The notes below the pieces were generated by a model. It did no database searches and had not been told where the DNA came from. It saw nothing but the letters and a program-made list of their open reading frames with translations. A DNA stretch of 5,864 bases from assembly GCA_016193165.1 (NCBI GenBank), contig JACPST010000048.1, positions 4,982-10,845 of the forward strand, read 5' to 3'. How positions within the stretch are numbered: the first letter of the stretch is position 1; each line of letters begins with the position of its first letter. Positions 1,610-3,541 of the stretch are shown one piece after another. Made by a program: the position numbers and the translations under genes. The DNA comes from Deltaproteobacteria bacterium (lineage in GTDB: Bacteria; Bdellovibrionota; JACOXK01; 2-02-FULL-40-11).

Positions 1610-1682
1610 GCTGGCGTAGCTCAGTTGGTAGAGCAGCTGATTTGTAATCAGCAGGTCGCGGGTTCGAATCCCATCGCCAGCT
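1610..1682 (+). tRNA. tRNA-Thr (anticodon UGU)
   Basis: The cloverleaf folds fully. The acceptor stem GCTGGCG (1610-1616) pairs with CGCCAGC (1675-1681), the D stem GCTC pairs with GAGC, and the anticodon stem GCTGA pairs with TCAGC around loop TTTGTAA. The anticodon TGT at 1643-1645 reads ACA and related Thr codons. The T loop is TTCGAAT and the discriminator base is U at 1682. CCA is not encoded. The T stem GCGGG/CCCAT has one C-A mismatch (1659 against 1673) next to a G-U pair, where a G at 1673 would give a normal stem. It is the first gene of a Thr-Tyr-Gly-Thr cluster ahead of tuf. Confidence 0.95.
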
Positions 1683-1695
1683 GAGATTCGGATAG

Positions 1696-1778
1696 GGAGA
1701 GGTACCCGAGTGGCCAAAGGGATCAGACTGTAAATCTGACGGCGCAAGCCTTCGGAGGTTCGAATCCTCCCCTCTCCA
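1696..1778 (+). tRNA. tRNA-Tyr (anticodon GUA)
   Basis: This is a class II tRNA with a long variable arm (about 1740-1753, GGC-GCAA-GCC hairpin). The acceptor stem GGAGAGG (1696-1702) pairs perfectly with CCTCTCC (1771-1777). The anticodon stem TCAGA/TCTGA encloses CTGTAAA, giving anticodon GTA at 1730-1732. The T arm is GGAGG-TTCGAAT-CCTCC and the discriminator base is A at 1778. The bases that follow are TGG, so CCA must be added after transcription. The long variable arm with GTA anticodon and A73 identifies tyrosine, not serine or leucine. Confidence 0.96.
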
Positions 1779-1808
1779 TGGTTTAAAAAATTTTATTGGG
1801 GAAGTGAT

Positions 1809-1881
1809 GCGGGAGTAGCTCAGTTGGTAGAGCATCAGCCTTCCAAGCTGAGGGTCGCGGGTTCGAGCCCCGTTTCCCGCT
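1809..1881 (+). tRNA. tRNA-Gly (anticodon UCC)
   Basis: The acceptor stem GCGGGAG (1809-1815) pairs with TTCCCGC (1874-1880), with one G-U pair at its inner end. The anticodon stem TCAGC/GCTGA encloses CTTCCAA, giving TCC at 1842-1844, which reads GGA and GGG. The T loop is TTCGAGC and the discriminator base is U at 1881, as expected for glycine. It is directly followed by CCA at 1882-1884, so this is the only one of the four tRNAs here whose 3' CCA could be encoded. Six bases separate that CCA from the next tRNA. Confidence 0.96.
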
Positions 1882-1890
1882 CCATTTTTC

Positions 1891-1963
1891 GCCCACGTAG
1901 CTCAGTTGGCAGAGCACTTCCTTGGTAAGGAAGAGGTGACCGGTTCGATCCCGGTCGTGGGCT
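1891..1963 (+). tRNA. tRNA-Thr (anticodon GGU)
   Basis: The acceptor stem GCCCACG (1891-1897) pairs perfectly with CGTGGGC (1956-1962). The anticodon stem CTTCC/GGAAG encloses TTGGTAA, giving GGT at 1924-1926, which reads ACC and ACU. The T arm is ACCGG-TTCGATC-CCGGT and the discriminator base is U. CCA is not encoded. With the UGU tRNA upstream, it covers most Thr codons. It lies 41 bases before the tuf start, so processing of this tRNA probably sets the 5' end of the tuf message. Confidence 0.96.
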
Positions 1964-1990: not shown

Positions 1991-1997
1991 GAGGAGG
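1991..1997 (+). promoter_or_regulatory. strong ribosome binding site of tuf
   Basis: GAGGAGG is a near-perfect anti-16S match, spaced 7 bases from the ATG at 2005. It is by far the strongest site in the window and fixes the true tuf start at 2005, although the long open frame begins only after the frame break. Confidence 0.9.
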
Positions 1998-2004
1998 ATA
2001 AAAT

Positions 2005-3223
2005 ATGTCTAAGGCGAAATTTGAGAGGAAGAAGCCACACATTAATATAGGGACGATAGCAGCCACACATTAATATAGGGACGATAGGGCACGTAGATCA
2101 TGGCAAGACGACGTTAACAGCGGCGATTACGAAGGTGTTAAGTGGGAAGGGGTTAGCCGAGTTTTTAGCGTTTGATAAGATTGACAAGGCTCCTGAGGAA
2201 AAAGAGCGAGGGATTACGATTGCCGTTAGTCACGTAGAATATGAGACGGATAAGAGACACTATGCGCACGTAGATTGTCCTGGTCATGCGGATTATGTGA
2301 AGAACATGATTACGGGAGCTGCGCAGATGGACGGAGCTATTTTAGTGGTTTCAGCAGCGGATGGTCCGATGCCGCAGACAAGAGAACATATTCTTTTGGC
2401 TCGGCAAGTAGGGGTGCCAAAGATTATTGTATTTTTAAATAAAGTAGACATGGTGGATGACAAAGAGCTTTTGGATTTGGTGGAAGTGGAAGTGAGAGAT
2501 CTTTTAAACAAATATGAGTTTGATGGGGACAATGCGGTGATTGTAAGAGGGAGTGCTCTTAAAGCCTTAGAGGGGGATAGTGGGGAATTAGGAGCTCAAT
2601 CGATTCAAAAGCTGATGGATTCAGTAGATAGTCAAATTCCGGAGCCCAAGAGAGATATGGATAAGCCTTTTTTAATGTCTGTGGAAGATGTATTTTCGAT
2701 TTCAGGACGAGGAACGGTGGCTACGGGGAGAGTAGAGAGAGGGGTTGTAAAACCTGGGGAAGAGGTAGAGATTGTAGGGATTAAGCCTACGGTAAAAACA
2801 GTAGTGACCCAAATTGAGATGTTTAGGAAGCTTTTGGATGAGGGGAGAGCTGGGGATAATTTGGGAGCACTTCTAAGGGGGATAGATAAAGATGGGGTAG
2901 AAAGAGGACAAGTGTTAGCTAAGCCTGGGACTATTACGCCGCATAAGAAGTTTAAGGCAGAGATTTATGTTTTAACCAAGGAAGAGGGTGGCAGGCACAC
3001 GCCCTTTTTCAATGGATATCGGCCGCAGTTTTATTTTAGGACAACAGATGTGACCGGGAGCGTGACACTTGCGCAAGGAACAGAGATGGTGATGCCTGGG
3101 GACCGTGTGACGGTAGATGCAGAGCTGATTACGCCGATTGCGATGGAAAAGGAGCTGCGGTTTGCGATTCGAGAAGGTGGAAAAACAGTGGGAGCGGGTG
3201 TCGTTACCCAAATTGTAGAGTAA
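2005..3223 (+). CDS. tuf: elongation factor Tu, frame broken near the 5' end by a 28-base duplication
   Basis: EF-Tu is the GTPase that delivers aminoacyl-tRNA to the ribosomal A site. Read as written from the ATG at 2005, translation gives 22 residues ([18 protein letters not shown], then AATH) and stops at TAA 2071-2073. Removing 28 bases (2060-2087) restores a 396-residue protein, the normal family length. It would have all G motifs: P-loop GHVDHGKTT (19-27), the switch I segment KERGITI ending at 63, [12 protein letters not shown] and GSALKALEG, followed by intact domains 2 and 3. The rest of the gene (2060-3220) is clean and conserved, so decay is not advanced. A GTG at 2135 could start the long frame, but it lies after the P-loop and has no ribosome binding site, so such a product could not bind GTP normally. 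Glycine codon use is heavy in GGG, unlike the genes on both sides. The gene sits between tRNA-Thr and rpsJ. The break may be an assembly error or a real pseudogene copy. Confidence 0.93.
2033..2087 (+). repeat. 27-base perfect direct repeat, period 28, inside tuf
   Basis: Bases 2033-2059 and 2061-2087 are identical over 27 bases and are separated by a single C at 2060. Both copies encode [12 protein letters not shown] sequence from the EF-Tu N-terminus, but in different frames, because 28 is not a multiple of three. Copy 1 continues the frame of the ATG at 2005. Copy 2 is in frame with the P-loop and the rest of the gene. A TAG at 2057-2059 closes the downstream frame just before copy 2. Confidence 0.98.
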
Positions 3224-3226
3224 CCT

Positions 3227-3541
3227 ATGGACGCACAAACACAAAAAATTAGAATTCGGCTCAGAGCGTTTGATCACGCTCTCTTGGATAAATCTGTTCA
3301 AGAGATTGTGGAATCAGCCAGACAGACGGGAGCTCGTATTGTTGGACCTATTCCTCTTCCAACCGAAATTAATAAATTTTGTGTTCTTCGTTCTCCGCAT
3401 ATAGATAAAAAGTCACGCGAACAATTTGAAATCAGAACGCATAAAAGACTTCTTGAGATTATTGAGCCCACGCAACAAACAGTGGACTCCTTGATGAAAC
3501 TAGAACTTTCCTCTGGAATAGATGTAGAGATCAAATTATGA
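3227..3541 (+). CDS. rpsJ: 30S ribosomal protein S10 (NusE)
   Basis: S10 is a head protein of the 30S subunit and, as NusE, also takes part in transcription antitermination with NusB and NusG. The 104-residue length is normal. Recognisable stretches are [33 protein letters not shown], the loop [20 protein letters not shown], and the end [10 protein letters not shown]. The start is 3 bases after the tuf stop, with only a weak GTAGAG at 3215-3220, so translation is probably coupled to tuf. There is no room for the long S10 leader that L4 uses for feedback control in E. coli. The stop overlaps the rplC start as ATGA. Confidence 0.97.

Follow-up and report, generated by a model that had tools for sequence, protein, structure and literature searches.

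The window analysed here—the whole stretch of 5,864 nucleotides of DNA—makes up the right end of a scaffold of 10,845 nt (G000:C164:4982-10845) and is directly preceded by a 22-N gap in that scaffold. Its genome, G000, is a draft of 219 contigs and 1,293,806 bases with a completeness of 71.6%. The window encodes pyrF, rlmB, four tRNAs, tuf, rpsJ, rplC, rplD, rplW, and the start of rplB, and those of its features that are given with coordinates below lie on the plus strand. The tRNA genes (1610..1963) are tRNA-Thr(TGT), tRNA-Tyr(GTA), tRNA-Gly(TCC), and tRNA-Thr(GGT), with which a tufB locus ordinarily opens; the identical tRNA set is found ahead of tuf in relatives. On the other side of tuf, rpsJ (S10; 3227..3541)—the usual follower of tufA—is the first gene of the local S10 cluster rpsJ-rplC-rplD-rplW-rplB. 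The window was compared with the sister genome G001, the family member G003, and the further family drafts G004 and G005, among other relatives; genes in loci outside the window were named via sequence comparison and by eye.

Repeat and frame break in tuf

The tuf gene opens at ATG 2005, ahead of which a purine-rich ribosome-binding site, GAGGAGGAT, can be read off the sequence (1991..1999). The frame of this start codon comprises 22 codons and ends at TAA 2071-2073 (2005..2073). The body of the gene follows in the +1 frame (2060..3223 with its stop codon), where 387 codons from the P-loop through the C-terminus are open from 2060 to 3220; TAG 2057-2059 lies immediately 5' of this frame, which overlaps the start frame by 14 bases. 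Around the frame change, two copies of a repeat (2033..2059 and 2061..2087) are identical at 27/27 nucleotides—as an overlap of two contig ends retained twice would be—and are separated by a lone extra base, C 2060, which differs from both the A before copy 1 and the G after copy 2. An exact adjacent repeat of this length is far beyond chance. An earlier note on this DNA had described a duplication that separates the tuf start from the frame of the GTPase body, an ATG 2005 that yields merely 22 residues, and a body that is intact from 2060 on, and all of this holds. Its remark that deletion of 28 nucleotides would restore a 396-residue EF-Tu agrees with the size of the shift (28 = +1) and with the 396 residues of the 14 closest relatives.

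The body scores 709-730 bits against the NCBIfam EF-Tu models; for TIGR00485 (EF-Tu), the body by itself reaches 710.0 bits and passes the curated cut-off of 522.4. Relative to the sister genome, 124 of its 1,161 bases differ; 108 of the affected codons change synonymously and five non-synonymously, and the codon that holds base 2060 is one of these five. Judged by such substitutions, the constraint on the tuf body is normal and without decay. The 14 nearest other database proteins are 93-99% identical, and every one of them is 396 amino acids long. For the window itself, a gene caller set the EF-Tu start at ATT 2069 (database protein P0006, 384 aa), a choice that was forced by the frame break.

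Read in the body frame, C 2060 turns residue 10 into Gln, whereas Lys occupies this position in 28/28 relatives' loci with a legible N-terminus (29 loci, the 29th being cut by a contig end) and in 15/15 fetched proteins spanning it; the former count was read by eye, as a narrow script pattern matched 22/30. All 28 legible loci have an in-frame Met and an N-terminus that continues into the P-loop, and the duplication is found in none of them. A simple tandem duplication copies its flank, and hence an A or a G would be expected between the copies. The observed C fits neither, so that a real duplication requires a further change exactly at the junction, whereas none is required if two contig ends were abutted with a spacer of one base. 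This bears on the reading that a real and very recent 28-base tandem duplication, together with one changed base, disabled one of two tuf genes, the other of which supplies EF-Tu. The undecayed body is what such a very fresh event predicts, but in addition to the extra substitution or insertion at the junction, an intact tuf in all of the legible relatives' loci and in the 14 closest other database proteins speaks against it, and we regard it as unlikely.

Alternatively, the duplication might be real and the gene recoded: the 22-codon leader would end at UAA, and an EF-Tu whose N-terminus is changed would arise through slippage into the +1 frame ahead of TAA 2071 or through a stop and restart at the overlapping AUU 2069. 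The +1 frame, open from 2060, briefly overlaps the start frame, and a gene caller itself starts at ATT 2069. The programmed +1 frameshift of prfB relies on a Shine-Dalgarno-like run directly ahead of CUU UGA, and tuf resembles prfB in having an early stop in an essential translation gene whose remainder is in the +1 frame. In contrast to prfB, however, tuf bears neither a matching signal—a shift signal of the prfB type was looked for and not seen—nor conservation, and its shift stems from a perfect duplication that no relative with a legible locus shares. Moreover, the frameshift product would repeat the first strand ahead of the P-loop GHVDHGKT (2087-2110). The in-frame starts are limited to GTG 2135 and the ATT of the gene caller: restarting at the former, the earliest ATG, GTG, or TTG of the body frame, lies past the P-loop and would lose it, and the AUU lacks a well-spaced ribosome-binding site, with AGGGA positioned ~14 bases upstream. 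Recoding, one of the options of the earlier note, hence finds no backing in a shift signal or in conservation among relatives; it was rejected and is extremely improbable.

Gene order around tuf and its copies in relatives

Two types of tuf locus occur in the phylum: tRNA-Thr/Tyr/Gly/Thr-tuf-tRNA-Trp-secE-nusG and fusA-tuf-rpsJ. The 30 loci that were typed among the matches listed—leaving aside both G021 copies and the second G014 copy—comprise 12 with the order tRNA-Thr-tuf-tRNA-Trp, five with fusA-tuf-rpsJ, 11 with one side illegible, and two hybrids; in other words, 17 of the 19 listed loci with both sides legible are ordinary. The window is one of the hybrids, its order of four tRNAs-tuf-rpsJ combining a tufB front with a tufA back. 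The only other hybrid among the typed loci belongs to the sister genome, whose fusA-tuf-tRNA-Trp is the complement of the window's join; rlmB and rpsJ were sought in this sister genome, and neither was seen. For a fresh duplication within one tuf copy, the hybrid order and its reciprocal counterpart in the sister are left unexplained.

Duplicate genes tufA and tufB that are kept alike through gene conversion are described in PMC6053082. Compared with the pairs described there, the window has the tufB-side tRNAs in front and rpsJ, the tufA neighbour, behind, and G003 shows two identical tuf 3' ends; unlike in these pairs, the window fuses the front and the back of two loci around one tuf. This raises the possibility of a real duplication accompanied by a genuine tufA x tufB recombination in the genus, with tRNA-tuf-rpsJ and fusA-tuf-tRNA-Trp as true gene orders. 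Both reciprocal products are indeed seen, one per genome in two genomes of the genus, and the gene conversion between tuf copies covered by PMC6053082 provides a precedent. Yet an event between direct repeats would excise rpoBC-fusA as a circle whose re-insertion is then needed; neither of the two genomes shows both products, both are fragmented drafts that are broken at tuf, and wrong exits from a collapsed repeat in an assembler give the identical two joins. We consider such a recombination highly improbable.

The family member G003 illustrates how the two tuf copies behave in an assembly. Its loop contig C13 (16,090 nt), spanning tRNA-Trp to fusA-tuf, carries an identical 141 nt of the tuf 3' end at both edges, and contig C15 on the rpsJ side opens with those 141 nt too. 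Two tuf 3' ends in this genome also mean that one copy could be spared if the other were disabled by a fresh duplication. In G004—2.0 Mb in 20 contigs, with a completeness of 100—the rlmB-tRNA contig stops 68 nt into tuf and the rpsJ contig opens within the tuf 3' end, and in G005 the corresponding contigs stop right after the tRNAs and open inside tuf, respectively. Family assemblies break at the edges of tuf, as the contig ends of G003, G004, and G005 fall there. Such breaks in relatives are put down to tuf being, in all probability, present as a two-copy repeat throughout the family, which would also explain the position of the break in the window: the junction lies 55 nt into tuf, near the break in G004. 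Among the matches listed, no EF-Tu body was found for G004, nor for G005, G002, G031, and G036; the best hits in these drafts are GTPases other than EF-Tu or short stretches of the 3' end. That G004 is rated 100% complete and yet has no listed EF-Tu body implies that tuf drops out of such assemblies.

Missing DNA and traces of joining in the drafts

Protein and DNA searches of G000 returned one tuf only, and the second-best protein hit, at 33% identity, is not EF-Tu; a second tuf within this assembly was dropped as a candidate. For the option of the earlier note that the window holds a pseudogene beside a second tuf, this search is unfavourable, but an absence from a draft of such completeness is weak, and the low probability given above stands. 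In the ordinary order, the segment from tRNA-Trp to fusA would lie between the two tufs. Searches for this segment in G000 found no true match to rpoB (a single 51-residue stretch, E 1.1e-4) and, for fusA, other GTPases only; rpoC residues 523-1384, the 3' half, and an rpsL-like ORF are located on a separate 3,029-nt contig. With sister DNA as the query, the search for tRNA-Trp to rpoB, which had no positive control within G000, retrieved a dispersed repeat only. The S10 cluster past rplB was likewise not found in G000 with G003 DNA, which means little at family distance. As G000 is 71.6% complete, the missing loop is weak evidence when taken alone—supporting, not decisive.

The dispersed repeat is ~100-130 nt long and is located between rplL and rpoB in the sister genome (L123:5509-5713). 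In G000, it gives 14 matches on at least 11 contigs at 80-93% identity; no Rfam match was obtained for it in L123 or L127.

Gaps and repeats were scanned in 81 of the 219 contigs of G000, eight of which are all N, corresponding to 508,965 other bases. This sample contains 19 N gaps of 1-75 N each, four of which are flanked by exact overlaps that were left unmerged, and the flank length is a constant 9 nt at these four, which suggests that they stem from a single stage of the assembly procedure. In the sister genome, one of six gaps shows a 6-nt overlap. The tuf junction itself contains no N, and an overlap of ~27 nt was found at none of the 19 sampled gaps. The earlier note had pictured two contigs sharing an end of k-mer length; this picture fits the junction, but a 27-nt contig-end overlap was absent elsewhere among 74 contigs of G000, whose ends showed no repeats beyond two short ones of 17 and 15 nt that are rich in A/T. 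Contig-end overlaps as a pointer to the word length of the assembler were therefore dropped, as no 27-nt family exists in these contigs.

Two-copy tandem duplications that satisfy the rule of the scan number five in the scanned non-N bases of G000, tuf and four others, compared with one in 177,277 bases of the sister genome and none in 400,000 bases of G011, a genome in one contig; with counts this low, the genomes cannot be told apart. Apart from these, G000 carries one 9-nt tandem array, CCAGACAGG, with about eight units (L194:605-710, G000:C157). Of the four other duplications in G000, three keep the frame of the long ORFs that contain them and have the look of real events. Tandem duplications elsewhere in G000 and in the sister genome show that real duplication does happen here, which lends some weight to a fresh duplication of tuf; tuf is the only one of the five in which a gene is broken.

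A perfect tandem duplication of 41 nt (L143:3309-3390, G000:C9) covers the ribosome-binding site and the start of an RRM-like gene, of which one complete start is kept. It was considered as a second scar at a repeated gene and rejected, as the stretch matches only itself in G000; lacking another match, it gives no support to a join at tuf.

Origin of the frame break and its implications

The frame break in tuf very probably marks a join made in draft assembly and not a biological novelty. The earlier note had listed a wrong sequence as one option among others, and it is this option that is favoured by the hybrid order of the genes, its reciprocal counterpart in the sister genome, the missing middle DNA, and a junction base that a simple duplication leaves unexplained. 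The organism would carry two near-identical tuf genes ~14 kb apart, as G003 shows, which would act as a repeat beyond the resolving power of a short-read assembly. One contig, whose end consists of the initial 55 bases of the tuf on the tRNA side (tufB), would then have been joined to another that carries rpsJ from the tufA side together with the tuf body common to both loci. Repeat copy 1 would correspond to the end of the former and copy 2 to the start of the latter, the 27-base overlap staying unmerged at the join with one filler base between the copies. A join that leaves its overlap in place is the simplest account of the repeat, the odd base, the frame, the hybrid order, and the missing middle together. 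We infer that software made this join, and that the organism has two tufs, both intact.

A comparable behaviour is reported in PMC8352505: where contigs overlap, the scaffolder LINKS places a one-base gap between them and can thereby fragment genes. The junction in the window resembles such joins in its repeated contig end, its one-base spacer, its fragmented gene, and its position at the margin of a gene that is probably duplicated. It differs from the LINKS joins in that its spacer is a base and not an N, and in that the sampled part of G000 holds no second 27-nt case.

A real duplication would mean that one tuf copy was inactivated very recently or, as the least likely case, that an essential gene is recoded. 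If the frame break is indeed due to assembly, it calls for caution: because of near-identical tuf genes, EF-Tu loci are broken, lost, or fused in short-read drafts, and an essential gene can hereby show a convincing frameshift, with a gene caller then starting at ATT.
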